Source: a virus | IMG/VR virus record: IMGVR_UViG_3300031718_000013 | Coordinates: 1-56,445 of that record | Length of the DNA stretch: 56,445 nucleotides | Reading direction: 5' to 3' (one strand) | Part shown: in pieces, positions 17,195-40,639 of the stretch | Position numbering within the stretch: position 1 is the first letter of the stretch | Layout of the letters: every line of letters starts with the position of its first letter | Made by a program: the position numbers and the translations under genes | Notes under the pieces: generated by a model | What the model was told of the DNA's origin: nothing | Database searches by the model: none | Seen by the model: the letters and a program-made list of their open reading frames with translations, nothing else

Positions 17195-18484
17195 ATGCCT
17201 ACCTTAGCAGGCGATGTAATCAACGCGGCGAGACTCGAGTGGCCTGACCCGCCACAGGTGCTCCCGCGTCCGATCGTCCTGAACGTCTCTCTATCCGCGG
17301 GCGGTTCTATTGCAGGCGGTTGGGCACCGGGCGTCACCGGCTTTTTCGTTGCGACCGCGAAGAATCAGTGGGGCGAGACGACAGCGACCGGCGAAGTGAG
17401 CTTGGCGACGACTCCTGGCAATCAGGTGTTCAAGGTCGAGGTTGGGACTGGCCCAGGCGTTACAAGCGTCCGCGTCTATTGGGGTCTGAGCACTGGACAA
17501 GAAACTCAGTATCTCGAAACCAGTATCATCGATCCGATCACCGGCCTTTTTGAAGTGCTCGTGCCGGCTCCGCAAGGTGGAAGTCCCGCGACTCCGCCTG
17601 TCAGCAATTCGGCGATTTTGCCGGACACCGATGGATCCGCCATCTCGGCGAGCCAAGCCTATGCGTGGCTGAACGATGGACTGACGGAGTTGACCGAGCT
17701 GGCTGGCGGGATTCTTGACTCAACCGGTATGCAGGGCATCGCGCAGAATATGTACTACGTGGTGCCGGGGAAGTGGTACGAGATCACCGAGATTCGCTGG
17801 GACAACTGGCCGGGATTCGCGGCAAAGCGAAACGAGGTCTTCTATCGGATCGTGCTCTCGGGCGTACCGACCTTGTTCACCGAGGAAGGCCGGACGTCTC
17901 AGCAGATAATCGGTGCGTGGCCTGCGCCGGGCGCTGACGGAAATCAGACGACGCTTCAAGGCGGCGCGGCCGGCTTGGGGCAACCGTTAGGCCCGACGGA
18001 TACCACGATGATCGTAGCGAACGCGCTGAACTTCACGGTGCAGCAGCGGGTGCTCATCGACAACGAAGTGATTCTCTACGGCCAGGTGAACGCGGGACCG
18101 GGGGGCAATTACACGCTCTCAGGCTTGATCCGCGGAGTAGGCGGGGCGCGCGCGGCAAGCCATGCGGTCAACGCGACCGTCACCGAGCTCAAGATCACGG
18201 TGGTTGGCTATCGCTATCCGACTCAGTACATGGTCGGAGATTCAGCGGCCACTCTCGACGTGCCACCAGCGTGGGAAGTGCCGATCCGCCAGTACATGAG
18301 GTATCGCTATCTGAGTCTCGAGCAGGGCGACGACGACGCGCAGAAAGTGTACGAGTCGTTTCAGGCGCATGGAAATAGACTACGCATTCAACGAATGGGA
18401 GCGGTGAGATCGTTGCAAGTCGGTCCACCGTTGCTCTCAGAGGATCCAGCGGGCGCGTGGGAAGGAAGAATCCTGATTCCTTAA
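17195..18484 (+). CDS. Head-tail adaptor / tail protein (429 aa)
   Basis: N-terminal MPTLAGDVINAARLEWPDPP resembles the start of podovirus adaptor proteins. Residues about 45-130 form Ig-like strands (GFFVATAKNQWGETTATGEV). The C-terminal half has AYAWLNDGLTELTELAGGIL and AWEVPIRQYMRYRYLSLEQG, the helical core seen in P22 gp4-type connectors ('DdA..yes..'). It should dock on the portal after DNA packaging. Inferred from these patterns and position. Confidence 0.6.
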   Translation: MPTLAGDVINAARLEWPDPPQVLPRPIVLNVSLSAGGSIAGGWAPGVTGFFVATAKNQWGETTATGEVSLATTPGNQVFKVEVGTGPGVTSVRVYWGLSTGQETQYLETSIIDPITGLFEVLVPAPQGGSPATPPVSNSAILPDTDGSAISASQAYAWLNDGLTELTELAGGILDSTGMQGIAQNMYYVVPGKWYEITEIRWDNWPGFAAKRNEVFYRIVLSGVPTLFTEEGRTSQQIIGAWPAPGADGNQTTLQGGAAGLGQPLGPTDTTMIVANALNFTVQQRVLIDNEVILYGQVNAGPGGNYTLSGLIRGVGGARAASHAVNATVTELKITVVGYRYPTQYMVGDSAATLDVPPAWEVPIRQYMRYRYLSLEQGDDDAQKVYESFQAHGNRLRIQRMGAVRSLQVGPPLLSEDPAGAWEGRILIP

Positions 18485-19713: not shown

Positions 19714-19952
19714 TGGCGCGACCGTTCGACAGCGTTGACTCCCCGTTGCAGAGGCAGCAGCCATTCTCGCAGTTTGGCGGTGCGCCGACGAGAGAGCCGA
19801 GGATGCAGCACCCGAAGGATACGAGTGCGGTCACGCATCCGGGATTTGAGCCGATGATGCAGCACGCGCCAATCGCGATCCTGATGGCCTTGCTTTCGCA
19901 TCCGGCGTTCGGGCCGTTGATCATCAGGATGCTTTTAGGAGCGAGTAGATGA
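19713..19952 (+). CDS. Hypothetical protein with C-terminal hydrophobic helix (79 aa)
   Basis: The polar first half is followed by a hydrophobic segment near residues 52-76 (PIAILMALLSHPAFGPLIIR) that could cross a membrane. Overlaps the next gene by 4 nt. It fits a minor ejection or membrane-contact protein, uncertain. Confidence 0.5.
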   Translation: MARPFDSVDSPLQRQQPFSQFGGAPTREPRMQHPKDTSAVTHPGFEPMMQHAPIAILMALLSHPAFGPLIIRMLLGASR

Positions 19953-20560
19953 ACCCTATTCTTCAAGCGATTCTGGCAGCACTCGGAACGGGTGGCGGTG
20001 GACTATTCGGCGGTCTCAACACGCCCGCGAGCGGCGGCGGTCTGTCTCCCGCGATTCTCGCGCAGCTTGGCATCACGGCTCCCGTCGCGGCAGGCGGTGC
20101 GAATCCCGGCATCCTGACTCAGCTCGGGCAGATGCTCAATCCAGCGAATCCGATGGCGGGCTTGCTCCAACTGGTCTCGGGTGGAGCGATGCTCCCGTTC
20201 GCATCGAAGGGCGAATCGTCGATCGAGAACGTAATGAGCTTTCTGAGCAATCCGCAGAAGTTCGCGAATCTCTTCAAGCAGATCGCGGCGCCGATGAATA
20301 AGACGCTGGTGAAGACTTTGCAGAGTGAGGGCGAGGGCGCTGCGGCGGAATCGGGACTCGGGCAATCGGCTGGCGCGGTATCATCAGCGGTTGCGAAAGC
20401 GGCGGCCCCTTACGTGCAGCAGAATATTTCGGCAGCACCGGGTAACGCGCTGAATCTCTTACAGCAGCAGATGGCCGGTGCGAGCCAGTTCGGCAGTCCC
20501 TATGCGGCGATCGCGCGGATGTTCCAGAATCCGGAGCAAGGGGGATCGTTGGGCTTCTAA
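19949..20560 (+). CDS. Gly-rich probable ejection protein (203 aa)
   Basis: N-terminus MNPILQAILAALGTGGGGLF is again a hydrophobic Gly-zipper. It is followed by Gly/Ala-rich and helical segments (VMSFLSNPQKFANLFKQIAA). Same style as the 341-aa protein upstream; likely an internal virion protein. No recognised family. Confidence 0.5.
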   Translation: MNPILQAILAALGTGGGGLFGGLNTPASGGGLSPAILAQLGITAPVAAGGANPGILTQLGQMLNPANPMAGLLQLVSGGAMLPFASKGESSIENVMSFLSNPQKFANLFKQIAAPMNKTLVKTLQSEGEGAAAESGLGQSAGAVSSAVAKAAAPYVQQNISAAPGNALNLLQQQMAGASQFGSPYAAIARMFQNPEQGGSLGF

Positions 20561-21180
20561 TGGCTGGCGCAATCTTCGGTCCAATCGCCGGTCTTGCCGG
20601 ATTAGCGGCTAATAGTCGCAGCGCGGGCCAGCGCGAGGCTCAGCTCGAAGCGCTGAATCAGCTCAAAATGAGCGGAATGCTCGAAGAGAACGCGGCGAAC
20701 GCTTTCACTCTCAAACAGACGCAGGCCCAGGACGCAGCGCGCCAGAAGATTTTGAACGATCCGAAGACTCCGCAATCGGTGAAGGATGCTCTCGCGCTCG
20801 GGGCGACTCCGACGGACGCTCTCAAGATGCAGACGCAAATGCTCACGAGCAAGGTCGAGGCGGTGCTCCTTCAAATGCCGGACAAAGCCAGTCGGCAGGC
20901 GTTCTGGTCAACGGCGGCGGAAGCGAACCCGAGTCTCGTGATGACGCCGACGATCGCGAAACTGCTTGGGATCGGCGGAACCGACGATGATTATAACGCC
21001 GCGCGAACAGCGCTTGCGAAGTCGCGGACGACGCAGATCGACCTTCTGAACAAGATGATGCAAGACCCCGCGATGAAGGCGCTGGTTCTGAAAGCGCTCG
21101 GTGGTGGTGCATTGGGCGGACCGGATGACCTCGGGGGCGGAGCGACTGGCGCTCCCGACGATTTGGAAGAGATCAAGTAA
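20560..21180 (+). CDS. Probable internal virion / DNA-transfer protein (206 aa)
   Basis: A short hydrophobic start (MAGAIFGPIAGLAGLAANSR) followed by a long Gln/Ala-rich amphipathic helix (QREAQLEALNQLKMSGMLEE), the layout of P22 gp7-like DNA-transfer proteins. It ends in an acidic Gly tail. Start and stop both overlap neighbours. The role is inferred from layout and place. Confidence 0.5.
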   Translation: MAGAIFGPIAGLAGLAANSRSAGQREAQLEALNQLKMSGMLEENAANAFTLKQTQAQDAARQKILNDPKTPQSVKDALALGATPTDALKMQTQMLTSKVEAVLLQMPDKASRQAFWSTAAEANPSLVMTPTIAKLLGIGGTDDDYNAARTALAKSRTTQIDLLNKMMQDPAMKALVLKALGGGALGGPDDLGGGATGAPDDLEEIK

Positions 21181-22118
21181 TGGCTGACACCACCTATCTC
21201 TACAGCCGATCGCGAAAGGCGTGGTTTGCCAAGGATGCCAGCGGGCACATTATCCAAGTGCCGGATGCTGCGGTGCCTCAAGCGAAGCGCGATGCGGTAT
21301 CGAAGAAATACGCTGCTGGTGGTGAAGGGCCGCCGACTGCTTCGAGCTTCGGTGTGCGAATGGGACCGTTCACTATCGGCAAGAAAACTCAGACCGGCAT
21401 GAGCGTGTCTGAGAAAGCGCAGCGCGAAAAACTTGATCGGGAATCCGCTGATCTGCTCCGACAGGCTACGGACCTTCAGCGGCTCTACCGCGAGAAAATC
21501 AAGCCCAAGCTCGACAGCGGGCAGATCAGTTCAACGAAGGCCGGCCTCCAATACACTCGCAGGGGCATGGCTCGAATGCTCGGACAGGGTGAACTCGATC
21601 CCGACGTCGAGAACTTCATCACCAAAACGGGACAATTCGCCACGGCGGTCAATTCGTTCTATATGCAGGCCGGCCAAGGTCGCGCGAGCGCACTCGGTTT
21701 CAAGACGATCGTGATGCCGCACGTTCCTCATCCGCCATCGGGACCGGGCGAAGTACTCGGGTTGGATTCCGGCGTGCCGCAATGGGATTTGCAGCAGCAG
21801 GGCGGACAGATCGACACGATCATCGACAACATCAAAAGGGAGCGCGCCGCGGGCTGGACGTTTCAGGAAGGTGGTGGAGCGAATCCTAGCGCGACGGCTA
21901 CGCCATCGAATCGCAAGCCGCTTCCGGGCGGATACACGCTCGATCCGGCCACCGGCAAGGTTTATCCGCCAAGTGCGACTCCGACGCCCACGGCCAAGCC
22001 AAATGCGATGCCGCCAGGATTGCCGGTTCCTTTGATGAAGCGGGCGGGCGCTGGTGCTAAACCACCGCCGAACCCGTTCAAGGTTTTGGAGATTCCGCCA
22101 ATGGTAGGCGGGGGCTGA
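21180..22118 (+). CDS. Hypothetical internal virion protein (312 aa)
   Basis: Starts MADTTYLYSRSRKAWFAKDA. The central part is helical with long Lys/Arg/Leu runs (ATDLQRLYREKIKPKLDSGQ). The last 90 residues are Pro/Thr/Ala rich and probably disordered (PPSATPTPTAKPNAMPPGLP). The family is unknown; operon position suggests an ejection protein. Confidence 0.5.
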   Translation: MADTTYLYSRSRKAWFAKDASGHIIQVPDAAVPQAKRDAVSKKYAAGGEGPPTASSFGVRMGPFTIGKKTQTGMSVSEKAQREKLDRESADLLRQATDLQRLYREKIKPKLDSGQISSTKAGLQYTRRGMARMLGQGELDPDVENFITKTGQFATAVNSFYMQAGQGRASALGFKTIVMPHVPHPPSGPGEVLGLDSGVPQWDLQQQGGQIDTIIDNIKRERAAGWTFQEGGGANPSATATPSNRKPLPGGYTLDPATGKVYPPSATPTPTAKPNAMPPGLPVPLMKRAGAGAKPPPNPFKVLEIPPMVGGG

Positions 22119-22119
22119 T

Positions 22120-23448
22120 ATGGCCGACGAAACGCCAATCGATCCGAAAGACCTCCCGCCCGAAGTCGCGGCGGCCGCTGCTGCTGCTATGGGCGCGAAA
22201 GGTCAGAGCTGGTGGGAGCGGAATATCAAGCCGTACCAGAGGCCGGTCGCGAATGTGCTGGGCTACTGGCCACCCGGGACGCCGGACTTTATCAAGAAGC
22301 TCGGACCTCCAGGTGCAGCGAAGGAACTCAGCGAGCAGATCGTACCGAGTACCGCGACCGATGCGGCGCTGAATGCGCTCATGCTCGCGATGCCCGAAGG
22401 ACGGATGCTTGAAGCACTGCCGCCACCAGTGCGCGCATTGCTCAAGAGCCGGCTCGGCAGAATCGGGATGATGACCGGAGCGGGCTATGGGGCCGGCAAA
22501 CTGACTGGCGAGGGAGGCCCGAAAGGTGCGGCCAAGGGAGCGTTCGGACAGACTGCCGGTGAAGTGGGTAGCGTGGCCTTCCGGCGACTCACGGAGGGCA
22601 ACGAAGCGGCTCGGTATATACGCAATCTTGGACCGAAGATTCAGGATCAGTACCCGATAATTGGAAGCGCCTTGCAACGTCTCAAGAAGAATCTTTCGAC
22701 CGCGTCGGATTACCTAGTGTTTAAGGGTGGCATGAAGTCGCCAGCGATGAAGGAAGCGAGCGCCATTCTCGATGAGATGAAAACCGCCGTCGAGGGCGCA
22801 ATCGGCGGGCGTTATCAGGCGATGCGTCGTTCGCCCGCTTTTCAGAACCTGATTCGAGACAATCCGGCCGAGGCGAGAGAATTAGGCATCGGCACCGGAT
22901 CGCCGTTGACGTTTCGACGCATGGATGAATTTATCAGTCGCGCGCGCGCTAATGCGTACAGTCTCGCGACGGGCGCGGGGAAAGATGCCGCCAAGGCTGC
23001 CCGCATCAGAATCAACGCGGATCAAGCGCTCGACGATCTGGCGAGCCAACTGAACACACTCGCGCCGGGAAGTGGCGAACTATACAGGTCCGCTCAAGGC
23101 GACTGGCATCAAGCGCGGCAGTTGGCCGATATGTTCACCGAGAAAGGCGTCTTTGAGGGTGGAGCCGTCTCGCCATCGCGACTACAGGAACTGGCGATGG
23201 AGGGTGAGCGAACGGGATATTTCACCGACCTTGGTGACACGCCAGTACGGAGTCAGATTTTCCGAGGCGGTGACGCGACAGGTACGGATCGACCGCGTGG
23301 CGGCATTCGAATCCATTACGGTCACATGGGAGCGCATATTAATCCGTTCGGCACGAAGCGCGTCGGGGCGGAACCGGTCGAGCTTTACCACGGCATCCCG
23401 GCGATCACAGGGAAGGCCGTCGCGAATTGGTTCTCGGGGGATAACTGA
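22120..23448 (+). CDS. Large probable ejection protein (442 aa)
   Basis: Contains a Trp-rich N-terminal patch (QSWWERNIKPYQRPVANVLG), a Gly-rich hydrophobic segment (MMTGAGYGAGKLTGEGGPKG) and long helical stretches to the end (ARANAYSLATGAGKDAAKAA). Size, helical content and place at the end of the block match the largest DNA-ejection protein of podoviruses (P22 gp16/gp20-like role). No lytic transglycosylase motif was seen. Confidence 0.5.
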   Translation: MADETPIDPKDLPPEVAAAAAAAMGAKGQSWWERNIKPYQRPVANVLGYWPPGTPDFIKKLGPPGAAKELSEQIVPSTATDAALNALMLAMPEGRMLEALPPPVRALLKSRLGRIGMMTGAGYGAGKLTGEGGPKGAAKGAFGQTAGEVGSVAFRRLTEGNEAARYIRNLGPKIQDQYPIIGSALQRLKKNLSTASDYLVFKGGMKSPAMKEASAILDEMKTAVEGAIGGRYQAMRRSPAFQNLIRDNPAEARELGIGTGSPLTFRRMDEFISRARANAYSLATGAGKDAAKAARIRINADQALDDLASQLNTLAPGSGELYRSAQGDWHQARQLADMFTEKGVFEGGAVSPSRLQELAMEGERTGYFTDLGDTPVRSQIFRGGDATGTDRPRGGIRIHYGHMGAHINPFGTKRVGAEPVELYHGIPAITGKAVANWFSGDN

Positions 23449-23629: not shown

Positions 23630-24187
23630 ATGAAAAGGATACTCGGAAAAGTGCTCGCTCTGCTTTTCGCCGTCTTGGTGATCGGAATCGCCGGATCGGC
23701 GCACGCGCAGACCGCGACCGCAACAGCAACTGCAACCGCCACGGCAACTGCGACTGCCACCGCTACTGCCACGGCCACAGCAACCGCGACCGCAACTGCG
23801 ACCGCGACTGCCACAGCCACACCGCAGCCGCCAGGAAACGTGGCTTGCCTCACGGCGAACTCGACGGCGAGCGGAACAAACTGTAGCGGCTGTACGCCTC
23901 TATTCATCTCGAACCCAGGGCGTCGCGGCTTGCAGTGCGAGAATCTGAGCTCGTCGATCGTGGCTACCTACTGCATTGCACCCGACAACGCTCCAAACAC
24001 GCTGACGGACCAGTGTACGAGCTTGCTCGGCTTCCAGTTGCCGGTGACGACCTCGGGCACTAACAACATCGTCACGTATCCGGCGACGGGAAGCATCGCA
24101 GGAAGCGCAGGGGCTGGTGCTCCGACAGGCGCGGTCTATCTCTCGACCGCCTCGTCAACGGCGCTCGTCTGCTGTCTGCAGTGGTGA
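23630..24187 (+). CDS. Secreted Thr-Ala-repeat protein (185 aa)
   Basis: The ATG at 23630 (GGAGA 6-10 nt upstream) gives a clear Sec signal peptide, MKRILGKVLALLFAVLVIGI then AGSAHA, cleaved before QTATA. It is followed by 18 Thr-Ala pairs, a Pro-rich hinge and a Cys-rich beta domain (six or more Cys, GRRGLQCENLSSSIVATYCI, ending ALVCCLQW). That end domain resembles the small 'RRGL.iqN.s...v' beta domains common in phage head or tail fibres. The Cys pairs fit oxidation in the periplasm. Signal peptides are very unusual in virion proteins. Confidence 0.7.
   Translation: MKRILGKVLALLFAVLVIGIAGSAHAQTATATATATATATATATATATATATATATATATATATPQPPGNVACLTANSTASGTNCSGCTPLFISNPGRRGLQCENLSSSIVATYCIAPDNAPNTLTDQCTSLLGFQLPVTTSGTNNIVTYPATGSIAGSAGAGAPTGAVYLSTASSTALVCCLQW
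23711..23821 (+). repeat. Thr-Ala hexanucleotide repeat 1
   Basis: Eighteen ACN-GCN units plus a final Thr codon, encoding (Thr-Ala)18-Thr. The synonymous codons vary from unit to unit, so the protein repeat is conserved while the DNA repeat is not. Confidence 0.9.
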
Positions 24188-24188
24188 C

Positions 24189-24536
24189 GTGAAGAGGCGA
24201 CTTATATGGCTGGCGCTGGCGTTTGGCCTTTGGTGGTCGACGCCAGCGCTCGCCAACGGGGTCTCGGCGTCCTATGCGTGTCTGAGCACAGGCTCGACGC
24301 AGCTAGTCGGAATAAACGGTGGCCGCAAGGGATTCATGTGGCAGAACACCGGAACCGTTCCCGAGGTCATCGCGATCGGAACCGGGAATGGGTGTAATGG
24401 TGCCGGCCCGAATGGGACGGTCCTATATCCTGGCGACGTCTGGAAACTGCCGGATGGATCTGAGCCGGTCCCGACGGCGGACATTTCCTGCTGCACAGCG
24501 ACGGGAACCGGGGTAGTCTCCGGGATGGAGTGGTAG
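24189..24536 (+). CDS. Secreted small beta-domain protein (115 aa)
   Basis: GTG at 24189, overlapping no gene, gives the signal peptide MKRRLIWLALAFGLWWSTPA-LA followed by NGVSAS. The mature domain (GGRKGFMWQNTGTVPEVIAI, GTVLYPGDVW, ISCCTATG, ending GMEW) follows the same pattern as the C-terminal domain of the 185-aa protein upstream: R/K-G-hydrophobic-x-N, a Tyr-Pro turn, paired CC and terminal W. The two are probably paralogs. Confidence 0.6.
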   Translation: MKRRLIWLALAFGLWWSTPALANGVSASYACLSTGSTQLVGINGGRKGFMWQNTGTVPEVIAIGTGNGCNGAGPNGTVLYPGDVWKLPDGSEPVPTADISCCTATGTGVVSGMEW

Positions 24537-24538
24537 CC

Positions 24539-24760
24539 ATGAAGCGAGAAATAGCGTCAGAACCCGGCAAGGACGAGAAGCCTCGCTACTCCGTTCACTT
24601 TCATGCGGAAGGTGACTCGATGGATGACCTCCACCGGAAGATGGGCAAAGCTTTCGGCAAGGATGGCGGTTCCAAAGAGGGCGAGAACAAGCGCCCGAAT
24701 CGACGCGCGCGGAAGTCCATGAAGCGCGATATGAAGAAGCACGGTGCAAAGAGAGGCTGA
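24539..24760 (+). CDS. Basic-tailed protein (73 aa)
   Basis: MKREIASEPGKDEKPRYSVH, a His/Asp-rich middle (FHAEGDSMDDLHRKMGKAFG) and a Lys/Arg tail (RARKSMKRDMKKHGAKRG). The GTG at 24530 is an alternative start. A member of the small basic protein set, placed among secreted proteins but without a signal peptide. Confidence 0.55.
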   Translation: MKREIASEPGKDEKPRYSVHFHAEGDSMDDLHRKMGKAFGKDGGSKEGENKRPNRRARKSMKRDMKKHGAKRG

Positions 24761-24765
24761 CCCCC

Positions 24766-25203
24766 ATGAAGCGATTTCTGATCGTGCTTTCTGTCGGCCT
24801 GCTCGTGTGGCTGGTGTGGATCGCGTCCGCAAAGGCTCAGACGATACCCCAGCGCGCGAAGATTAGCGCTGCCGTGGGTTCGCCAGCCGCCGCGGTGAGC
24901 TGCGGTCCTGCCGCTCCATCAGGTTCGACGCTCCCTCTCGTGAATCACCTGACCGGCTATACAGTCATGTGCGGGAAGGCCAGCGGAACGACCAGCGAAG
25001 CGACCGTGACCGTGACCGGGCTGAGTGGAGGCACCGCCACGCTCGGATATATAGACGAGTCTCAAACCGGCGTCTCCTTTATTGCGGAAGACCTGACCTA
25101 TCCCGCGATTGCGGCGTCGGGGTCGTCGGCGATCACGATCTCCATGCCGGCCGTGACGAACGGAGGACCGTGTACGTGTGTCGCCATCTACGCACAGTAT
25201 TAA
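24766..25203 (+). CDS. Secreted beta-rich protein (145 aa)
   Basis: Signal peptide MKRFLIVLSVGLLVWLVWIA then SAKA, cleaved before QT. The mature part is Ser/Thr/Gly rich with beta pattern (ATVTVTGLSGGTATLGYIDE) and two pairs of Cys (SCGPA, MCGK, CTCVAIYAQY). Overlaps the start of the next gene by 28 nt. Function unknown; probably part of the exported fibre-like set. Confidence 0.6.
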   Translation: MKRFLIVLSVGLLVWLVWIASAKAQTIPQRAKISAAVGSPAAAVSCGPAAPSGSTLPLVNHLTGYTVMCGKASGTTSEATVTVTGLSGGTATLGYIDESQTGVSFIAEDLTYPAIAASGSSAITISMPAVTNGGPCTCVAIYAQY

Positions 25204-27857
25204 ACGCCTTCCTGATCGGCCTGCTCCTGTCCGGTACGTCGCAGGGACTGGTCGCGCCACTGCCGCCGTGGTGCTCGCCGAACTCGCATAAGCCGGGATG
25301 CGGCGGTGGAAGCTCGGTCAATCCGACTGTTCCCGCGAATCTGAAATCGACGTCGACCGTCGTACAATGCACGGCGACGGCTGGAAACAATACCCTCACG
25401 GCCTGCTCGCCCTCGGGCATCATTGCCGTGGGAGATGCGATCGCAATACCTGCTGCTGGCCCAACGCCGGTCATCGCGGCACCGTCGATCAATGCGATCA
25501 ACTACGTGTCCTCGAGCATGGGGGTGAATCCGCCTCACACTGGCACTTGCGTCCATTGCTACGCGGCGTCCGCGATCGAACTGGATAACCTCTCAGAGAC
25601 CGGATGCGGGCAGGCGTGGTGTACGCAGGCGACCGAGCCTTGCACGCTGAGCGCGGGGCAGGAAGAGAACGTGATCATCACGCCGGTAACTGGCGCGCTG
25701 TCCTATGTGATGCACGCCTGCACGGTGCCGACTGCCACGGCAACGAGCACGGCAACCGCTACGGCGACGGCGAGCGCATCTCCGACGAGCACTGCCACGG
25801 CGACGGCCACAGCCACAGCAAGCACCAGCGCCACGGCGACTGCTACCGCGACCGCAACTCCGAGCGCCACAGCGACTAGCACCGCGACCGCGACCTCGAC
25901 GGCTACCGCGACGACGACCCCAGCGGTGACGGCCACTCCGACGCCCACGCCGAGCGCGGTCCCGACCAACTCGCCAGCCTGCACGCCGCTGAGTGTCGCA
26001 TGGCCGATCCCGCAAGCAATCCTGCCGGGTTATCCGGACATGGGCCTGACGAACGTGCAAGGTGACGCCTGCGGTGCTCCCACGCATGGGACGATCTATG
26101 GGACGGTGACGGTTGTTACGAACTCCACGATCACCTATTCAGGGCCAGCGCCTACGATCAATGGCTCGGTGAGCGTGGTCGAAGAGAACGGCGCCACGAT
26201 CAACGCCAAGAGTGCGTCGTACACCGCGGCGACTCCGCCTGGCGGGGCCGTGAACGTGATTCCCACTGGCGACTATTATTTCGCGCGGGTTCTGACGGTG
26301 CCCAACCAAGTCACGTTAGCTGCTCAGGCACCTAGCGGCGTCGAGTACCCGGGGAAGGCAGTCGCGATTCCGCCATTGGGATCGCTTGAGAACGGGACTC
26401 GCCTAATCTCGGCACTGCCGGATCATCTTTTCGGCGTTCAAATGTGGAACGGGGTGAACGAGGGATTCAAGAATTTCGTGCTCGACATGACCCATATCAA
26501 CGCGAGCTCGACGGTCAGCCGCGGGCAGACGGGAATCATCGGAGATGCGGACGGGACGCCGGGGCAGCAGATCAGCAATAACAAAGCGCGCATCAGCCAT
26601 ATCGAGATTTACGGCGCCGCGACGTGGGGCCGCTTCGGCGGGAACTTGACGATCGCCAACCAGGCACCACAGACGGACGTGAGTGAGACCACCGTCGAGG
26701 ACTCTCACGGCTACAATGACAGCAGCATTGGGGGTACGGGCCAAGCGGCTTACGGCATCCTTCTGGTGGGTGGAAACGTCTTCCGCGACACGATTGACCG
26801 GACGACGATGCTCGGCAATGCGATGTGTCAGGGCTATACCTTGCTGGGCACTGGATCCCTAAACGCTCTCTACGACGATGAGATGGCGGGAACGTGCGCG
26901 CAGTCCTCGGGGAAAGCTGGCTACGGGCTGTGGCTGAACACCGGGAATACTCAACTCGTGTTGGGCTTCCATACCGAAGGCCCGCATCTGCTCGATTCGC
27001 TCTATGTCGCGCCGAGTGTTGGCGAGATCCTTCAAGGCAGCAACGGCGGCGAGACCGTTCCGCTTCTGGTGATCGGCGGGAGCTCGCTCTTTAACAACGT
27101 CGAGCATTTAGGAACCGGGGCGATCGTTGACCTTGGCAATATGAGCGTCCCGACCGGCGTGTGGGCGATGGAGAGCACGGTGTCCACGGTGATCGGCGGC
27201 TTGGGACAGTGGCAGGCGACGGTAGCGGGCGGCGGTGTGACTGGCGACACGATCGGGGCGAGTTCGGACGTGACGTTGGGAACGCATGTCAGCAGGCTCG
27301 TGGTGGCTCCAAGCATAGACGAATTTGGAACCTTGGGGTCGGCGGCGTACTACACATCGCCTGGTGTGCGGACCTCGACGCGGGGCTGGTGCCAAGGGGC
27401 GAGCATCGTTACTGGCGGCTTCGATATTCTGCCGATGGCGATCAACGCGAATAACTGGGCACCGAATACGACCTATTCGAGCGGTGAGCAGATCATCCCA
27501 TCCCAAACCGGATCGGGTGGCGGCTACTCATCCGTGTTCCAGAACGAAGGCGGCTCTTGCACGACCGGCAGCAGTCCCCCTGAATGGTGTCGCGGACCGC
27601 TGTGTGTGAACGCGGATGGCGGCTGTAATCAGTGGCAGTGGATAAGCAATTCCTGCGTTACGCCAGTCTTGTCGATCTTCCCGACTGGCCCGAAATTCAC
27701 CTGCTATTATGCGAGTCAACTGCCGACGCTGAATGTGACGATGGGAACCCCGGCTTGCGTGCTCGATTGGAACGGGACGCCGGGAACGTGCGTGGGCGGT
27801 AGCTACGGAAACTATAAGCTCGCGATCTACAATGGGACGCGGTGGCAGTGCCAATAA
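25176..27857 (+). CDS. Secreted Thr-Ala-repeat tail-spike-like protein (893 aa)
   Basis: The frame is open from 24969, but GGAGG (25162-25166) with 9-nt spacing points to the GTG at 25176. That start gives a signal-like N-terminus, MCRHLRTVLNAFLIGLLLSG. Domains in order: a Cys-rich beta domain (to about residue 185), a Thr-Ala/Ser/Pro linker (about 186-262) and a long Gly/Asn/Thr-rich region with parallel beta-helix character (GTVTVVTNSTITYSGPAPTI, SHIEIYGAATWGRFGGNLTI, NVFRDTIDRTTMLGNAMCQG). The region ends with Trp/Cys-rich strands. Beta-helices of this type form receptor-binding tail spikes, often polysaccharide-degrading. A spike with an export signal is odd. Confidence 0.65.
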   Translation: MCRHLRTVLNAFLIGLLLSGTSQGLVAPLPPWCSPNSHKPGCGGGSSVNPTVPANLKSTSTVVQCTATAGNNTLTACSPSGIIAVGDAIAIPAAGPTPVIAAPSINAINYVSSSMGVNPPHTGTCVHCYAASAIELDNLSETGCGQAWCTQATEPCTLSAGQEENVIITPVTGALSYVMHACTVPTATATSTATATATASASPTSTATATATATASTSATATATATATPSATATSTATATSTATATTTPAVTATPTPTPSAVPTNSPACTPLSVAWPIPQAILPGYPDMGLTNVQGDACGAPTHGTIYGTVTVVTNSTITYSGPAPTINGSVSVVEENGATINAKSASYTAATPPGGAVNVIPTGDYYFARVLTVPNQVTLAAQAPSGVEYPGKAVAIPPLGSLENGTRLISALPDHLFGVQMWNGVNEGFKNFVLDMTHINASSTVSRGQTGIIGDADGTPGQQISNNKARISHIEIYGAATWGRFGGNLTIANQAPQTDVSETTVEDSHGYNDSSIGGTGQAAYGILLVGGNVFRDTIDRTTMLGNAMCQGYTLLGTGSLNALYDDEMAGTCAQSSGKAGYGLWLNTGNTQLVLGFHTEGPHLLDSLYVAPSVGEILQGSNGGETVPLLVIGGSSLFNNVEHLGTGAIVDLGNMSVPTGVWAMESTVSTVIGGLGQWQATVAGGGVTGDTIGASSDVTLGTHVSRLVVAPSIDEFGTLGSAAYYTSPGVRTSTRGWCQGASIVTGGFDILPMAINANNWAPNTTYSSGEQIIPSQTGSGGGYSSVFQNEGGSCTTGSSPPEWCRGPLCVNADGGCNQWQWISNSCVTPVLSIFPTGPKFTCYYASQLPTLNVTMGTPACVLDWNGTPGTCVGGSYGNYKLAIYNGTRWQCQ
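25731..25962 (+). repeat. Thr-Ala/Ser repeat 2
   Basis: About 77 codons of Thr-Ala pairs interrupted by Ser and Pro (for example TATATATATASTSATATA), grading into a Pro-Thr linker. Codon choice is scrambled as in repeat 1. Confidence 0.85.
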
Positions 27858-29932
27858 GGAAGTTCCTCTGGCTCGCGCTTTTGGCGCTTGCCGGTTGCGC
27901 CGCGCCAGCATCGACGAACGTGATTCACCTTGCAAACGGCGACCCTAAGTGTATGACGGGGCAATTCGTGACCGGAATGAGTCCTATGGCCTGCTCAGGG
28001 GGATTGGCGACCGGCGTGGAGAACGTGACCACCTTCGGTGCGACAGGGCAGGGTTTAGTCACTGACGCGCCAAGCTCACAGGCGGCAATCAACGCGGCGG
28101 GCGTCAGCCACTCGACGGGCTTCGGCGGCAACGACAACGGCACCCAGGTCGTGTTCCCGCCAGGATATTACCTGCTCGATTATCCGCTGTGGCTAAATCA
28201 AAGCGGCGTGTCTCTGGTCGGGATGGGCACCTTCGCCTCGGCACTCGGACCCACCTACGACTTCGGGCCGACGATCGTAGCCACGGAATCCACCTATGCC
28301 GGGATGCCGACGCACGCATCGCTGGTGACGGGTGCGGGCGCGGCCTTCGACTTCACGCAGAATCAACTCAAGTACTGGCTGAACCTGCGCGAGTGGGACG
28401 GCGTGAATGGGCCGTTCGGCACGCATAGCGGCTTGAACATGAACGGCCTCGGCGCGTTCTCTATCGAAGCCTTCGTGAATGACAAGACCGCTGGCGATGG
28501 AACAATAGTCAGTAGCGGCGGCACGCCTGACAGCGTGACGGGATTCGTACAGGCGTTTCAGCTAGGGATCAATGGTGGCAACTGGCAGGCCCGATTCTTG
28601 ACGACCACGAATGGCTACCTGAACACTGCGGGCGCGGTGTCCCTCAACACGCTGGAATACCTGCTGTTCCAGTACACCGGCTCCCATTACTGCATCTACG
28701 TCTGCACGCCGGGAAGCACGAACTGCGCGGTGACTGCTTCAGGAACTGCGACGGGCACCTTAATTCAGAATCCGCTCGAAGATGTGACGATAGGCCCGCA
28801 GGCTGCGATTTCGCCGAACAGTTCCCGCGAAGGCAACGCCATCAACGGCTACATCGACTCCGTGCGCATCTCCAGCGTGGCGCGCTATAGCGCGGGCGGT
28901 CTCTGCGACACGATAGCCAGCGTGCCGAATGCGAAGCTCACAGCGGACGCGAACACGTTGATTCTCACGAATGGCGAAAAAGACCCGAACGGGCTGACGG
29001 TGAAAGCCTACGACGGCGCGAGCACTTACGGTTGGCTCTTTCCCTACAACATCACCTCGGCGACGGGAGTAAGCCGGATCTCGATCAGCAACCTCGCGAT
29101 CAACCCGACGCAGTTCAAGGACGTGTCGGGAATCATCGCGGAGAGCGTCCACGACTCGCAGTTTGGGCCGCTCTACATGACGCCGAACATCGAAGCGCCG
29201 ATTGAGATGTTCAACCTGTCCTATAACAACAACCACGTTCACGACATCTACGCGATAGGACCGGGGCGCTTCGGAATCGCGAATCTCGGTGGCGGCTTCA
29301 ACCAGTTCGACAACCTGAGAATGCGCACCTACTTCGCCTGCTACGACATGGTGATCGGATCGGGATCGTTGCGGAACGCGCTCTGCGCGGACAACACCGG
29401 CGGCGGCGTGGCGTATCGGTTGATAACCGGTGGCGGGGCGAATGTCGATGACTATAGCCCTGCGAACGACTTCGAGAACGGCGGCAACATGAAGGCCAAC
29501 GTCTTGCAGACCGGCGGCGGCAACGTGCAGATTCACGGCGGTGCACTGGCGACGACCGACAACGCCCCGCTTGTGTGGATGGATGGCGGTGGCAATGCGA
29601 CCCTGACCGGAACTGCCTTGGGAGCGACGGGCACACCGAGCGAGATAGTCCATTCGACCGGCACGGCGGGAACGGTGCAATTCACCAACTCGCAATTCGC
29701 CAGCGGGCTAAGTGCGGTGTCGATAGATGACGTGGCGGGAGTGTCGGTGGTGACGCCGTGCAAGGGCAAGGTGACGCTATCCAGCGGCTCGGGCACCTTC
29801 ACCAACACCTGCGTCAGGGCCAACAGCCAGTGCGGCGTGAGCGCGGCGCATACCTGCACGCCGACAGTTAGCGCGGGCAGTGTGGCCTTATCGGGAACGG
29901 GGAGCGACGTATGCAGCATAAATTGCAACTAG
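27842..29932 (+). CDS. Lipoprotein-signal tail-spike-like protein (696 aa)
   Basis: Start GTG 27842 (or GTG 27848), inside the end of the previous gene. The N-terminus MAVPIRKFLWLALLALAGCA has a textbook lipobox (LAGC, Cys19) for signal peptidase II. Next comes a pre-spike segment (NVTTFGATGQGLVTDAPSSQ and VVFPPGYYLLDYPL), the start pattern of pectin-lyase-like spikes. A LamG-like insertion follows (GAFSIEAFVNDKTAGDGTIV ... YIDSVRISSVARYS), then beta-helix coils and a Cys-containing C-terminal domain. It is probably glycan-binding or degrading. Lipid anchoring would put it on a membrane and not in a virion unless processed. Confidence 0.65.
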   Translation: MAVPIRKFLWLALLALAGCAAPASTNVIHLANGDPKCMTGQFVTGMSPMACSGGLATGVENVTTFGATGQGLVTDAPSSQAAINAAGVSHSTGFGGNDNGTQVVFPPGYYLLDYPLWLNQSGVSLVGMGTFASALGPTYDFGPTIVATESTYAGMPTHASLVTGAGAAFDFTQNQLKYWLNLREWDGVNGPFGTHSGLNMNGLGAFSIEAFVNDKTAGDGTIVSSGGTPDSVTGFVQAFQLGINGGNWQARFLTTTNGYLNTAGAVSLNTLEYLLFQYTGSHYCIYVCTPGSTNCAVTASGTATGTLIQNPLEDVTIGPQAAISPNSSREGNAINGYIDSVRISSVARYSAGGLCDTIASVPNAKLTADANTLILTNGEKDPNGLTVKAYDGASTYGWLFPYNITSATGVSRISISNLAINPTQFKDVSGIIAESVHDSQFGPLYMTPNIEAPIEMFNLSYNNNHVHDIYAIGPGRFGIANLGGGFNQFDNLRMRTYFACYDMVIGSGSLRNALCADNTGGGVAYRLITGGGANVDDYSPANDFENGGNMKANVLQTGGGNVQIHGGALATTDNAPLVWMDGGGNATLTGTALGATGTPSEIVHSTGTAGTVQFTNSQFASGLSAVSIDDVAGVSVVTPCKGKVTLSSGSGTFTNTCVRANSQCGVSAAHTCTPTVSAGSVALSGTGSDVCSINCN

Positions 29933-30885
29933 CTCTTATCGTCCTTGTGCTAGCTTGCGCACAGGTCGCGTCGGCGCAAATCAGCGGCCCCATCACGCAG
30001 GCGGTAGGCGGCGGCAATGGCGGCAATGCCGTGATCTCCATGTCGCCCACCGGCACGACGCACAGCATGATCGCTATCGCGATGTGCTCCAACTCAGCCG
30101 GAACCACCAACGTCACGGTCAGCGATGCGCACAATACTTGGGCTAGAGTGGTCGGCTATAACAACGATGGCACATCTGATGTTGAGATTTGGCGAGCGAA
30201 CAGCGTATTCGCTGGCACCTATAACGTCACGGTCGCGCGGGGCGGCTGCAATCGAGTCGCCGCGAATATCTCGGAATGGTCGGGTCTCGGTGCGTTGGAA
30301 CTGACGGGTAACGGGCATGGTTCAGCGCAATTTACAGGCACCAGCGAATCTTCGGGAACCATAACCACCACGAACGCGCAAGACCTAATCATTGGTGGGA
30401 TAGGGGACGCGAGTGATAATAGCGGCGTTCTAAGCCTCTCGTGCGGACCGACAAGTTGTACCGGCACACCGAATACTATGACTGGGTTGACTATTACTAA
30501 TAGCGGTGGTGGCTTCGTGGCGATATACCCCGCATACAGCAACTCGACGGCAGCGGGGCTGTGGCAGGAAAACATGAGCAAGGCCGGGAATAGCTCACTC
30601 GGCGCCTACAGCGGCATTCTGGTCGGGATAGAGGGGCCGACGCCCTCTGCCACCGCAACTGCTACAGCGACAGCCACGGCGACAGCGACAAGTACGGCAA
30701 CTAGCACTGCGACGGCAACCAGTACAGCCACAGCGACCGCAACTAGCACTGCGACCGCTACTGCGACCTCTACTGCAACTGCAACGGCTACAAGTACGGC
30801 CACCGCCACCAGCACAGCGACCGCGACACCCACTTGTCCCGGTCGAACCTCATCCTCGATGTGGAGGCGCGCGCTGTGCCCTTAG
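29911..30885 (+). CDS. Secreted protein with C-terminal Thr-Ala repeat (324 aa)
   Basis: Signal peptide MQHKLQLALIVLVLACAQVA then SA, cleaved before QIS. The mature domain is a beta-sandwich-like fold (AISMSPTGTT..., AGTTNVTVSDAHNTWARVVG, VEIWRANSVFAGTYNVTVAR) with a few Cys. It is followed at residues about 247-307 by (Thr-Ala/Ser) repeats and a short basic end. Unlike the other two repeat proteins, the repeat is near the C-terminus. Overlaps the next gene start. Confidence 0.65.
   Translation: MQHKLQLALIVLVLACAQVASAQISGPITQAVGGGNGGNAVISMSPTGTTHSMIAIAMCSNSAGTTNVTVSDAHNTWARVVGYNNDGTSDVEIWRANSVFAGTYNVTVARGGCNRVAANISEWSGLGALELTGNGHGSAQFTGTSESSGTITTTNAQDLIIGGIGDASDNSGVLSLSCGPTSCTGTPNTMTGLTITNSGGGFVAIYPAYSNSTAAGLWQENMSKAGNSSLGAYSGILVGIEGPTPSATATATATATATATSTATSTATATSTATATATSTATATATSTATATATSTATATSTATATPTCPGRTSSSMWRRALCP
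30649..30831 (+). repeat. Thr-Ala/Ser repeat 3
   Basis: About 60 codons of Thr-Ala and Thr-Ser-Thr-Ala units, again with varied synonymous codons, ending just before the gp10-like gene start. Confidence 0.88.
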
Positions 30886-33035
30886 CATCGAAAACCGTAC
30901 AGAACTTTCAAGGGCTTTTCGCGAATTACCAGATCCTCTCGCAGCCCAAGGGAACCGTCTCGCGCGACTCAAACTTGTGGTTTGCTACTCGCGGCGCGCT
31001 TAGGACGATCCCCGGATCGAAGATCATTTGCGCTCCGGGCGTCGGCGCTCCATCGGTTTTCTGGCGTGCGATTCAGGTGTTTTTTCCCTCGATCGCAGCA
31101 TCGTACCGGCTCTTTGCGCTTTCGGTGATCGCCAGCGGCAGTTCAACCGCTGTGATGTACGACGTCACCGGAGCGACCTGGAATACGCCTGCAGCGATGA
31201 CGATCCCGAGCCAGGGTGGATCGTTCGCCAAGCGCCCTGCCATTCTCGGCGGCACTCCACAACCGACACCAGTTCTGTTGCCCTACGCTGACAAACTGAT
31301 CGCGGCAGTCAGCGATTCCGTGCCACCGTTCGAATACGACGGATCGACGCCAGCGGCCGCACCAACCTTGAGCAGCACCGCGGGCGGTGCGCTTCCCCCG
31401 ACAACGTACTACGTTCGCGTGGTCTACAACGGTTACGCGACCCCGAGCGCTGAATCAGTCCTCGCAGTTGCAGGCGGCAACGTCCTGGTCGTTCATTCAC
31501 CGCCAGCGGTCGTGCTGCCCCTCGTGACGACCACCTATGACGTCTACGTCGGAACCTCTTCCGGAACCGAGACGAAGCAGAACACCGCGCCGATCAACAT
31601 CGGCACCAACTGGACCGAGCCAAATACCGGCCTCGTGGCAGGCGGCGCCCATCTATCCGCTCTCACCGACTCCCCCGGCGGCAAGCAGCTCATCAACGAT
31701 TTCAACTCGAATGCGAAATACGCGAAGTGGAAGCCCAATCACACCTATAGCCAGGGCAAGATCATCACGATCATTGTCGATAATATCTCGTTCGAGTACT
31801 CAGCGACTCAGCAGGGAACGACAGGCGACGGATCGGGCACTCCCGGTAATCCCAACGGTGCCGACAATGCCGACCAGTTCCCCACGCAAGTCAACGCCAC
31901 CATCGTCGACGGGGATATGGGCTGGGAGTGCTTAGGACCGCTCCCCGGGCCTCCGCCGGGTGCCGCCTACGTCTTCAACCATCTCGGCTTCCTGTGGCTC
32001 TGGGGAACGGCTAGCGACTATCTGGCGGACGGTATCTCGGGACCGGATGCAATCTGGCAATCGGGCCTGAATGACCCCGAGAGCTTCGATCCGGCCTATA
32101 CCGGGTACGTCGCCAAGGGGAACGGGGAAACGGCTCAGGGTGGCGCCGTGCTGACGCTCGAGGAAAGCGGGATCGCCGCGACTCAGCAGTTGGTGCTCTT
32201 TAAGGACGCCTCGACGTACAGCGTGTTTGGCGACTTCTCGACCTCGATCGAGATTTTGCAGGCTCCGGGCGGTGTCGGGTGCATCGCTCCAGGGACCATT
32301 CAGTTTATGGCCGATCTCGGGATTCTGCGGCTCTCGTACAAGGGCGTGACCCTCTTCGACGGGCAGAACGACACCACCGAGCTCTACACCGATCCGATCC
32401 GGTCGTACATTTTCGGCGAGATAGACCCCAACAGCGGCGCCTATGTAATTCAGCCGCTGGACTTCGCCAATATCCAACTGGCTAAATCGACTCAGGTGAA
32501 GAACCCGAGCTGCTACGCTTTCATTGCCCCGGTCCTCGGCGGCACGACGACGCGCCTGTTCATCTACGACCTCGAAGCTCAGATTTGGGCGATCGGGGAT
32601 CTGCCTTGGAATATAGGCGCGGCGAGTTTCCAGCCGACTCTTTCGGGGATGGAATCGGTCGTCGGCCTTGCGAACGATGGCACGATTCGCAGGATACTCA
32701 ATCCTTCGGACCTCGATTGGGACGGGACGCCGATCGTGTCGAGCGTGCGACTGCCGGAATTCGGTCGAGCGGCTCAACCGCTCTATATCCGGGGCTTCAA
32801 CATCCGCGCGCGAGGCTCAGGGCGCGTTACGAGCGTCACGGCGACCTATAAGGGGGTGCAGGGCAAGGAGATTCTGAGAGCGCCGCTATTGCCTCCGCAG
32901 ATGATGACTGGACCGGTCGATTTCAAGGTCAAGGTGCTCTCGGTCCATATTGACCTCGCTTTTGTCGGCCAGGTGCTGATCGAGGGGATCGAGTACCAGA
33001 TCAAAGAGAAGCAGACCACGAGGGTTGGCGCATGA
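30876..33035 (+). CDS. P22 gp10-like tail hub / DNA-stabilisation protein (719 aa)
   Basis: I place the start at GTG 30876: GGAGG lies 8-9 nt upstream and the protein then begins MPLASKTVQNFQGLFANYQI, like podovirus hub proteins. The TTG at 30834 gives 14 more residues. The protein has repeated beta-propeller-like strands (TTYYVRVVYNGYATPSAESV, GFLWLWGTASDYLADGISGP, ATQQLVLFKDASTYSVFGDF) and late strands QPLYIRGFNIRARGSG. P22 gp10-type hubs close the tail below the adaptor, and 'NDPESFDPAY' after a Trp-containing strand is typical. No signal peptide, in contrast to its neighbours. Confidence 0.65.
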   Translation: MPLASKTVQNFQGLFANYQILSQPKGTVSRDSNLWFATRGALRTIPGSKIICAPGVGAPSVFWRAIQVFFPSIAASYRLFALSVIASGSSTAVMYDVTGATWNTPAAMTIPSQGGSFAKRPAILGGTPQPTPVLLPYADKLIAAVSDSVPPFEYDGSTPAAAPTLSSTAGGALPPTTYYVRVVYNGYATPSAESVLAVAGGNVLVVHSPPAVVLPLVTTTYDVYVGTSSGTETKQNTAPINIGTNWTEPNTGLVAGGAHLSALTDSPGGKQLINDFNSNAKYAKWKPNHTYSQGKIITIIVDNISFEYSATQQGTTGDGSGTPGNPNGADNADQFPTQVNATIVDGDMGWECLGPLPGPPPGAAYVFNHLGFLWLWGTASDYLADGISGPDAIWQSGLNDPESFDPAYTGYVAKGNGETAQGGAVLTLEESGIAATQQLVLFKDASTYSVFGDFSTSIEILQAPGGVGCIAPGTIQFMADLGILRLSYKGVTLFDGQNDTTELYTDPIRSYIFGEIDPNSGAYVIQPLDFANIQLAKSTQVKNPSCYAFIAPVLGGTTTRLFIYDLEAQIWAIGDLPWNIGAASFQPTLSGMESVVGLANDGTIRRILNPSDLDWDGTPIVSSVRLPEFGRAAQPLYIRGFNIRARGSGRVTSVTATYKGVQGKEILRAPLLPPQMMTGPVDFKVKVLSVHIDLAFVGQVLIEGIEYQIKEKQTTRVGA

Positions 33036-33571
33036 GTTCGAGCACCCCTGGCATGGGCGGCGTCAGTTCGCCGGCAATCCGGCAGATGCTCCAGCGCATC
33101 TTGAAGCCACATTGCTTCCGCGGGCTGTCGGTCATGGACGTCGCCGGCCTGCAGACGGATTCACGCGGCAACGTGATTGCGTCGGTGATTTCAGACGGCG
33201 TGACGATCGCGGGCGGTATGAACGGCGTCCCGATAAGCGGGATGGGCGGTCCTGCCGGCCTCGGGACACTGATCGTGGTCACCAAGGCTTTCGGGGCGTC
33301 TCCGTTTGCGGCGGCCCTCAGTCCACAGGCAGGGACGGTTTTTCGATGCTCGGCGGGCGCTGGCGCGGATTTCGTTTTCAATCTGCCGGCCGCAACGGGT
33401 AGCGGACAGTGGTGCGTCATCAAGAAGATGGACGCCAACGCGCACAATATCGCGGTGACGCCGAACGGGGGAGATACGATCGACGGAGCGAACGCGGCGG
33501 TCAATGTGGCCGTCCAGAATGACGCGCTCTGGCTCTGCGATACGGTCGCCGGTGCGTGGGATAGTCTATAG
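33032..33571 (+). CDS. Small tail fibre / tail tip protein (179 aa)
   Basis: Coupled to the hub gene by ATGA. Gly/Ala-rich, beta-type C-terminal domain (ADFVFNLPAATGSGQWCVIK then KMDANAHNIAVTP.GGDTI) seen in phage fibre tips. Receptor contact is inferred. Confidence 0.55.
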   Translation: MSSSTPGMGGVSSPAIRQMLQRILKPHCFRGLSVMDVAGLQTDSRGNVIASVISDGVTIAGGMNGVPISGMGGPAGLGTLIVVTKAFGASPFAAALSPQAGTVFRCSAGAGADFVFNLPAATGSGQWCVIKKMDANAHNIAVTPNGGDTIDGANAAVNVAVQNDALWLCDTVAGAWDSL

Positions 33572-33995: not shown

Positions 33996-34598
33996 ATGGC
34001 TAAATCAAAGCGGCGAAAGCGTGGCGGTCCACCTGTCCGCGCCACCTTGGGAGGCTTGCTAACCGCCTTCGACGCCGCGCTCGCCATCACGCTCCAGTAC
34101 GAAGGGGGAGCCTCTAACAATCCGAACGATCCGGGTGGACTCACCTACAAAGGCATCACCCAGCAGCTTTACGAAACCTGCTGCCGCCACTACGGATGGC
34201 CGATGCAGCTCGTCACTCAAGCAACCGCCGATCAGATCCGAACGATCTACCACGATCAGTTTTGGGTGCCCGCGCGCTGTGAAGCCATGTCAGAGCCGTG
34301 GGCGATAGCGGCGTTCGACTTCGCGGTCAACTCAGGCGTGAATGCCGCGCTCATCGGAATCCAGGTCGCGCTCAAGGTCCGGGGTCTCTACAAGGGCAAG
34401 ATAGACGGCAACGTAGGCCCATTGACGCTGGCGGCGATGAAACAGAACCCGGCTACGATCCTGCTCGACCACCGCGGCGGCTTCAATCACGGATTGTGGG
34501 TGGAGAATGCGCGACTGACGGACTTTATGAACGGGTGGATCGCGAGAGACCAAGACTTGCGCGCGCGGATTTCCGCGATGTGGAAGGAAGGCGGCTAA
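33996..34598 (+). CDS. Endolysin, GH108-type muramidase (200 aa)
   Basis: After a basic N-terminus, residues 30-60 read ITLQYEGGASNNPNDPGGLT, YKGIT: the catalytic Glu36 of glycoside hydrolase family 108 in the EGG..N.pxDPGG.T.~GIt context. The C-terminal half (VGPLTLAAMKQNPATILLDH and DGNVG) fits the PG_binding_3 domain normally paired with GH108. It cleaves the peptidoglycan backbone for host lysis. No signal peptide, so it depends on a holin. Confidence 0.88.
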   Translation: MAKSKRRKRGGPPVRATLGGLLTAFDAALAITLQYEGGASNNPNDPGGLTYKGITQQLYETCCRHYGWPMQLVTQATADQIRTIYHDQFWVPARCEAMSEPWAIAAFDFAVNSGVNAALIGIQVALKVRGLYKGKIDGNVGPLTLAAMKQNPATILLDHRGGFNHGLWVENARLTDFMNGWIARDQDLRARISAMWKEGG

Positions 34599-35119: not shown

Positions 35120-35132
35120 AGGAGGCAAAGCG

Positions 35133-35860: not shown

Positions 35861-36391
35861 ATGAAACGACTCGCAATTCTCTTGCTCGCCCTCGCGCTCT
35901 TCCCGCTCACGGCTCATGCCGCACACCACAGAGCGCACCACGTCTCTTTTCCCTTGCGCGGAGTCTACAGCGTCACGATCAATAACACGCAGAAGATGCC
36001 GGTCAGTTGCGGGGCGATCGCGCCTCCGAATCCGACGACCGGCTACCCTGTTAGCTGGTGGCCGAACACGGCGCCGGTGTTCACTTCCGACAATGCGAGC
36101 GTCACACTGGCGCCGATAAGCGGTGGCTCGAACCAGGTGTGGGCGATACCGAAATCAGGATTCGTTGGAACCGCCAACATCACGTGCTCATACACGAATC
36201 CCGATGGCAAGGTCGCGACTCCCAGCTCGGGGCAGATAATCGTTGCGGGAGCGCCGGCACCGACTCCGGAGCCGTCACCAAGCGCGAGTCCTGCCCCTAC
36301 CGCTATTCCATCAGCGAAGCCTTCGCCGGATATTACCGGAACCGGCATTAGCTTTTGTGGCCCGAGCGGGTGTAATCCAGTAGCGCAGTGA
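35861..36391 (+). CDS. Secreted beta-domain protein with Pro-rich tail (176 aa)
   Basis: Signal peptide MKRLAILLLALALFPLTAHA followed by AHHRAHH. The mature part is an Ig-like beta domain with one Cys pair (PVSCGAIAP ... ITCSY), then a Pro/Ala/Ser linker (APAPTPEPSPSASPAPTAIP) and a short Cys-containing end. Exported to the periplasm. It overlaps the next gene by 4 nt. Confidence 0.6.
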   Translation: MKRLAILLLALALFPLTAHAAHHRAHHVSFPLRGVYSVTINNTQKMPVSCGAIAPPNPTTGYPVSWWPNTAPVFTSDNASVTLAPISGGSNQVWAIPKSGFVGTANITCSYTNPDGKVATPSSGQIIVAGAPAPTPEPSPSASPAPTAIPSAKPSPDITGTGISFCGPSGCNPVAQ

Positions 36392-40255: not shown

Positions 40256-40639
40256 ATGAAACGACGGCTAACTCTATGTTTGTTTGTCTATGTGCTGCTT
40301 CGCTGTGCGCTCTTTATTTCGGGGTGCGCGACGATCGACAGCTCCACGACTTGCCCTAGCGGCACGATTGGAACGTCCTGGGGGCTGAATGGCTCTCAGG
40401 TCGGAAACCAGTTGATTGCGATGGGTGCCGCGGCCGCTAAGGTCGCCGGCTTCATGGCGACAGCACCGGGTGCCAACCAGCCCGCACCGACGACGATCAC
40501 GATGCACTACTCTTATGTGCCGATCTTCGGGCAGGATGGCGGATCGACGACATGCGTGATGCCGGGCGGAATCGCTGCCGGTGGTGGCACCACGATCAAC
40601 AATAGCCAAGGCGGCGTCATCAACATGCCCCATCCTTGA
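40256..40639 (+). CDS. Lipoprotein (127 aa)
   Basis: MKRRLTLCLFVYVLLRCALF then ISGC (Cys24) is a lipoprotein signal peptide with lipobox ISGC. The mature part is Gly/Thr/Ala rich with two Cys and no charged clusters. A surface lipoprotein such as a superinfection-exclusion protein or an outer spanin is possible; nothing specific identifies it. Confidence 0.65.
   Translation: MKRRLTLCLFVYVLLRCALFISGCATIDSSTTCPSGTIGTSWGLNGSQVGNQLIAMGAAAAKVAGFMATAPGANQPAPTTITMHYSYVPIFGQDGGSTTCVMPGGIAAGGGTTINNSQGGVINMPHP

Follow-up and report, generated by a model that had tools for sequence, protein, structure and literature searches.

Exported proteins encoded in the tail module

The 56,445-nucleotide stretch examined here, termed the window, is the complete IMG/VR virus record IMGVR_UViG_3300031718_000013, from a soil phage, and its tail module contains, at 23630-30885, a run of seven genes, most of which encode proteins predicted to be exported. 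Window genes were translated one by one, a likely start was sought for each, and signals were predicted with our own rule-based scorer, not with SignalP. On 41 annotated E. coli genes, the scorer found four of the five exported proteins at the cut-off, missing CueO, which has a Tat signal, and three inner-membrane proteins also scored. A Sec-type signal was identified at the start of six of the seven genes of the run, comprising four good type I signals, one weak signal and one lipobox. The six starts combine a basic n-region with a hydrophobic core and a cleavage site.

All seven genes lie on the + strand. The first (23630..24187) encodes a predicted exported protein of 185 residues with signal MKRILGKVLALLFAVLVIGIAGSAHA/Q, where the slash marks the predicted cut (AHA/Q), followed by a (Thr-Ala)n linker. 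The second (24189..24536, GTG start) encodes a small protein of 115 residues with signal MKRRLIWLALAFGLWWSTPALA/N (ALA/N). The third (24539..24760) specifies a small basic protein that has no signal, and the fourth (24766..25203) a protein of 145 residues with signal MKRFLIVLSVGLLVWLVWIASAKA/Q (AKA/Q). Two large spike-like proteins come next. The product of 25176..27857 (~893 residues, GTG start, with an alternative start at 25170) carries the weakest signal of the run, MCRHLRTVLNAFLIGLLLSGTSQG/L, whose probable cut is SQG/L, while that of 27842..29932 (696 residues, GTG start) has the signal MAVPIRKFLWLALLALAG/C with a good lipobox (LAG/C), a type I cut at APA/S being also possible. The last gene (29911..30885) encodes a protein of 324 residues with signal MQHKLQLALIVLVLACAQVASA/Q (ASA/Q) and a C-terminal (Thr-Ala)n linker. 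These linkers are degenerate and extend over 23706-23820 in 23630, ~25731-25966 in 25176 and ~30628-30845 in 29911. The Sec signals that the initial annotation had placed on 23630, 24189, 24766, 25176 and 29911, and the lipoprotein signal it had placed on 27842, were thus all recovered, that of 25176 being weak.

The run in related phages

A search for relatives with the gene that follows the run (30876..33035, + strand), termed the hub gene, returned only L004, a 6.3-kb fragment that displays the same gene order and encodes four signal-bearing proteins. The L004 homologue of 24766 (L004:225-659) is 57% identical, and its h-region residues differ while hydrophobicity is kept. A small basic ORF resembling 24539..24760 is found at the equivalent position of L004. 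In this fragment, the homologue of 27842 carries a type I signal and no lipobox, so membrane tethering of this protein appears not to be conserved. An alignment search with the capsid protein returned 13 IMG/VR contigs; in all eight records that reach the region, the genes for the internal virion proteins precede one to four genes whose products, 114 to 2094 residues long, bear signals. A further search, with an N-terminal domain shared by many run proteins of the relatives (described below), provided three more contigs with three to six signal-bearing genes each, whose capsid genes belong to the same family. In the eight large relatives and in these three contigs the run sits 3' of the internal virion genes and 5' of the lysis genes. 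It precedes the hub gene in the window and follows it in most relatives, and across relatives it comprises one to six genes.

The frequency of signals was compared in 14 sequences, comprising the window, 12 metagenomic relatives and the isolate Tunturi_2, with equal start-codon freedom allowed for every gene. Of the 51 run genes, 49 were predicted to have signals, whereas the remaining 471 genes of these genomes yielded 30 (Fisher p=2.6e-45); among 102 neighbouring virion genes just one scored. Signal-peptide prediction on homologues, proposed in the initial annotation as a check, is in agreement with it, here by the rule-based scorer.

When GenBank phages were searched directly, the hub protein, the portal and 27842 all remained without a match, and the viral contigs searched contained no relative of the 25176 spike. 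A TerL search reached distant podoviruses only; in one of them, CRP-7, a scan of 50 kb revealed no gene with a signal. Bacterial genomes scanned with the capsid protein and the N-domain for a prophage, and hence a host, revealed none. Two further signal-bearing spike-like proteins, L102 (G003:34676-36859) and L109 (G007:28312-29820), lie upstream of the main run among head and tail genes, and one of the two carries a GDSL/SGNH hydrolase domain. On the oriented contig G010 (the contig of L056), the gene called at 34916-35992 looks integrase-like by eye; some family members may thus be temperate. In podovirus ctQWt234 from Manatee Spring (L050:27247-28632), a tail-fibre-like protein of 461 residues with a strong signal peptide and six Cys is encoded after the stabilization gene, and exported fibres may therefore reach beyond the family of the window.

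Tunturi phages

Tunturi_2 is a podovirus that plaques on Tunturiibacter psychrotolerans X5P2, of the Acidobacteriota (PMC11924767). Its capsid protein is only distantly related to the window family (hidden Markov model E 9e-5). Signals are present in its tail module, on gp12, gp13 (annotated "tail fiber protein"), gp14 ("pectin lyase"), gp16 and gp17 ("virion structural protein"), and the deposited gene starts already include them. Past its signal, gp12 has a segment that matches the beginning of the tailspike of Serratia phage MTx, which is itself devoid of a signal, and Tunturi_1 has the gp12 region in common with Tunturi_2. The scorer found no signals in the tail genes of the siphovirus Tunturi_4 or of CRP-7. 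The tail fibres of Tunturi_3, a podovirus that also grows on strain X5P2, lack signals. Since one host strain supports both a phage with tail signals and a phage lacking them, export is a trait of the phage lineage and is not imposed by the host. The main text of the paper describing these phages never mentions signal peptides (PMC11924767).

Traces of cleavage and of an oxidising location

Gln occupies position +1, just after the predicted cut, in 31 of the 48 run signals (65%), against a background of 4.3%, and Gln plays no part in the rules of the scorer. Gln at this position corresponds to the Q-rule of Bacteroidetes (PMC5837995). The same bias was observed on plasmid pACIX901 of Granulicella tundricola (L062, L067-L086), where 18 of 42 predicted secreted proteins have Gln at +1 and several others have Gln a few residues away from the cut; a Q-rule akin to that of Bacteroidetes may thus exist in Acidobacteriota too. 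Because of this shared bias, the run signals seem suited to a signal peptidase resembling that of Acidobacteriota. The (Thr-Ala)n linkers described above also occur in one L004 protein and were found neither in the other relatives scanned nor on the Granulicella plasmid, so the host of the window may be of another kind.

Proteins whose Cys residues are fully paired after cleavage display the pattern of proteins folded in an oxidising compartment. Cys constitutes 2.15% of the mature run proteins, compared with 0.39% in neighbouring virion genes. The number of Cys is even in 37 of 44 mature run proteins (p=2.6e-6), against 27 of 44 when the precursors are counted with their signals, and in 144 of the 253 non-run genes that encode two Cys or more. 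In the cases where parity shifts once the signal is taken off, the resulting number is even 13 times and odd three times (one-sided sign test p ~0.011). The six mature proteins of the window are all even, with 8 (23630), 4 (24189), 4 (24766), 24 (25176), 14 (27842, lipobox Cys aside) and 6 (29911) Cys, the cuts of 25176 and 27842 having been placed by hand for the Cys count. The many paired Cys reported in the initial annotation are confirmed by these values, and its premise that exported, oxidised proteins lie inside the tail module is strongly supported. The Gln at +1 and the switch in Cys parity make sense only if the signals are cleaved and the proteins oxidised. We conclude with high confidence that the run proteins are exported and cleaved.

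Similarity of the run proteins to tail spikes and fibres

The run proteins look mosaic and variable, in the manner of receptor-binding proteins. None of 33 run proteins has a full-length homologue in another of these genomes, although many of those in the relatives share a domain of ~110 residues straight after the signal (the N-domain). Divergence of the N-domain correlates with that of the hub protein (Mantel r=0.76, 0/5000 permutations), while the remainder of the proteins is ~21% identical, which is near noise. C-terminal modules include pectate-lyase, GDSL (SGNH) and LamG. A region of the relatives' run proteins is homologous to annotated tail fibres of Synechococcus, Pelagibacter and Methylophilales phages, and weak PHROG tail and tail-fibre matches were also obtained. 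A PDB sequence search with the N-domain revealed no match. Its AlphaFold2 model (pLDDT 86) resembles phage tail-fibre proteins of BFVD (best named E 6e-4, TM 0.63); a weaker match was obtained with a PDB structure of a cyanophage tail fibre (E 0.012). In the window, the N-terminal part of 27842 displays a beta-helix motif of the pectate-lyase/GH55 type.

PHROG matches of 23630 to exclusion proteins were rejected, being below threshold (E 0.014-0.083) and located over the signal region. The main proteins of the window (324-895 residues) have neither the family match nor the small size expected for superinfection exclusion. It is proposed, with moderate confidence, that the run proteins are the tail spikes or fibres of the virion, in view of homology, predicted fold and gene position.

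Proposed assembly outside the cytoplasm and its alternatives

The interpretation that we favour, judged marginally probable, is that the run encodes tail spikes or fibres which, after export and cleavage, acquire disulfide bonds in the periplasm and then join the virion around lysis. Sequence evidence supports the first part of this route: each protein is made with a Sec signal that host signal peptidase, type I in most cases and possibly type II for 27842, removes, mostly leaving Gln as the new N-terminus, and the mature form, with its high and even number of Cys, thus forms disulfide bonds outside the cytoplasm. The spikes would then be held in the periplasm or on the surface until lysis, while heads, short tails and internal proteins would be assembled inside the cell in the usual way. 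Once the envelope is broken by the lysis proteins, both pools would mix, and docking of the spikes via their N-terminal parts onto the tail hub would complete the virion during or after lysis. If the proteins are both exported and virion spikes, joining must take place outside the cytoplasm, most simply at lysis. Between the two options of the initial annotation, addition of tail parts outside the cytoplasm is therefore the better supported, given the tailspike slot in the relatives, the mosaicism, and the tail-fibre homology and fold that follow the signal; display on the host surface, exclusion or capsule remodelling is the less likely option, favoured for 27842 alone, by its lipobox. The broader proposition, a widespread short-tailed lineage whose receptor-binding spikes are always Sec-exported, disulfide-bonded, periplasmic and attached only at or after lysis, appears to us evenly balanced.

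Several observations weigh against virion spikes assembled in this way. The fold similarity of the N-domain is modest (BFVD tail-fibre E 6e-4; best PDB E 0.009), HHalign of the N-domain against the N-termini of the signal-less Tunturi_3 fibres gave no significant match, and no counterpart of the relatives' N-domain was detected in the run proteins of the window. The spike nature of the latter is suggested by composition, position and one beta-helix motif (27842), and an AlphaFold2 model of 27842 built from two sequences (pLDDT 30) had no usable fold. The lipobox predicted in 27842 would tether that protein to a membrane. A signal-less protein encoded at 33032..33571 (+ strand), small and tail-tip-like by eye in its C-terminal half, might be a receptor-binding part made in the cytoplasm; database searches with it gave no match. 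Presence in virions is inferred, the run proteins being known here from their genes.

These points leave room for a non-virion function, which we rank second and consider unlikely, although a serious contender. Spike-derived enzymes or adhesins would be exported to the cell surface or surroundings, where they could trim exopolysaccharide or receptor, block superinfection or free released virions from debris. Cleaved signals, paired Cys, enzyme-like modules, the 27842 lipobox and the several paralogues per phage would all suit such proteins. The spike slot is, however, occupied in every relative, by proteins with tail-fibre-like fold and homology, and products of up to 2094 residues would be expensive for a moron function. 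What places this explanation second is that most of these phages would then have no evident receptor-binding protein, the product of 33032-33571 in the window being a possible exception. Mixed use is improbable: some proteins, such as the 25176 spike, would enter virions, while the lipobox protein 27842 and the small Cys-rich proteins would stay on the host envelope for display, exclusion or envelope remodelling. Size, linkers and signal type do differ within one run, and the number of run genes ranges from one to six, yet the tethering of 27842 is not shared by its type I homologue in L004. Uncleaved hydrophobic N-termini, acting as spike anchors inside the virion or as membrane-active entry peptides, are a very improbable explanation; some phage proteins do perform membrane work through such N-termini, but neither the Gln at +1 nor the parity switch on signal removal would be expected. 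An artefact, whether from assembly, from gene calling or from contaminating host DNA, is suggested by the home-made predictor and gene caller and by the mostly metagenomic relatives, but has a negligible probability, as the pattern recurs in 13 further sequences, one of them that of an isolate with signals in its deposited starts, and the window has a 127-bp direct terminal repeat.

Organization of the genome around the run

The direct terminal repeat of 127 bp lies at 1-127 and 56319-56445, and thus the record is probably a complete genome. Relatives G003 and G006 have repeats of the same length, an equality that assembler k-mer size may explain. The window encodes a large terminase (7578-9275), a portal (10222-11958), an endonuclease VII, the major capsid protein (14998-15996) and a conserved structural protein (17195..18484, + strand), possibly a head-tail adaptor, that has no signal. 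Four presumed internal (ejection) virion proteins (19949, 20560, 21180 and 22120; 19949..23448, + strand), so named from position and composition, contain no Cys and no signals, and the exported run comes next.

The hub gene encodes a signal-less, tail hub/stabilisation-like structural protein, and its GTG start at 30876 fits the L004 start. The protein is 73% identical to its L004 homologue, has a homologue in 9 of 9 records searched and weakly matches a PHROG virion structural protein. In ctQWt234 the gene at the equivalent position is annotated "phage stabilization protein", which points to a tail hub of the P22 gp10 type.

Farther downstream, an endolysin is encoded at 33996-34598. The two additional exported proteins that had been named at 35861 and 40256 were found again, both at or past the lysis genes: the former (35861..36391, + strand; 176 residues), beside the lysis genes, has a type I signal cut at AHA/A, and the latter (40256..40639, + strand; 127 residues) is a predicted lipoprotein with lipobox ISG/C. 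A weakly glycosyltransferase-like protein (37877-39196), also 3' of the lysis genes, is 51% identical to one in G006.

Comparison with known systems

The morphogenesis of tailed phages is taught as cytoplasmic. If the assembly proposed here is correct, a periplasmic or lysis-time step is added to it, disulfide bonds become usable for receptor binding, and virions could acquire spikes from a co-infecting phage. For annotation, signal-bearing proteins of a tail module are easily mistaken for host genes or secreted enzymes. Tunturi_2 makes the proposal testable, with Tunturi_3, on the same host strain, as a natural control without signals. The open-access full text searched contained no earlier report of signal peptides on tail fibres, subscription papers and preprints lying mostly outside this coverage.

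Phage proteins that use host Sec include exported endolysins and the antiholin RI (PMC6116005). These, like spanins and exclusion lipoproteins, share the pathway with the run proteins but are small and not spike-like. Some proteins of Porphyromonas phages have phage-encoded Sec signals that likewise expose an N-terminal Gln (PMC10367356); they are encoded by five Bacteroidota phage genes without an assigned function and were not called tail spikes or fibres (PMC10367356). Tunturi_2 resembles the window in the signals of its tail module and differs in its distant kinship. The run as a whole is most readily compared with the tailspikes and fibres of podoviruses (P22 gp9, T7 gp17 and the SGNH appendages of N4-like LIT1), with which it shares its position after hub and internal genes and beta-helix motifs, and the relatives' proteins further share variable C-terminal enzyme or lectin modules and an N-terminal domain whose predicted fold is tail-fibre-like. 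Known podovirus spikes are, however, synthesized in the cytoplasm and have no signals, whereas nearly all run proteins have cleavable Sec signals and paired Cys. The new element, if confirmed, would thus be the route by which tail spikes, a known class, are assembled.

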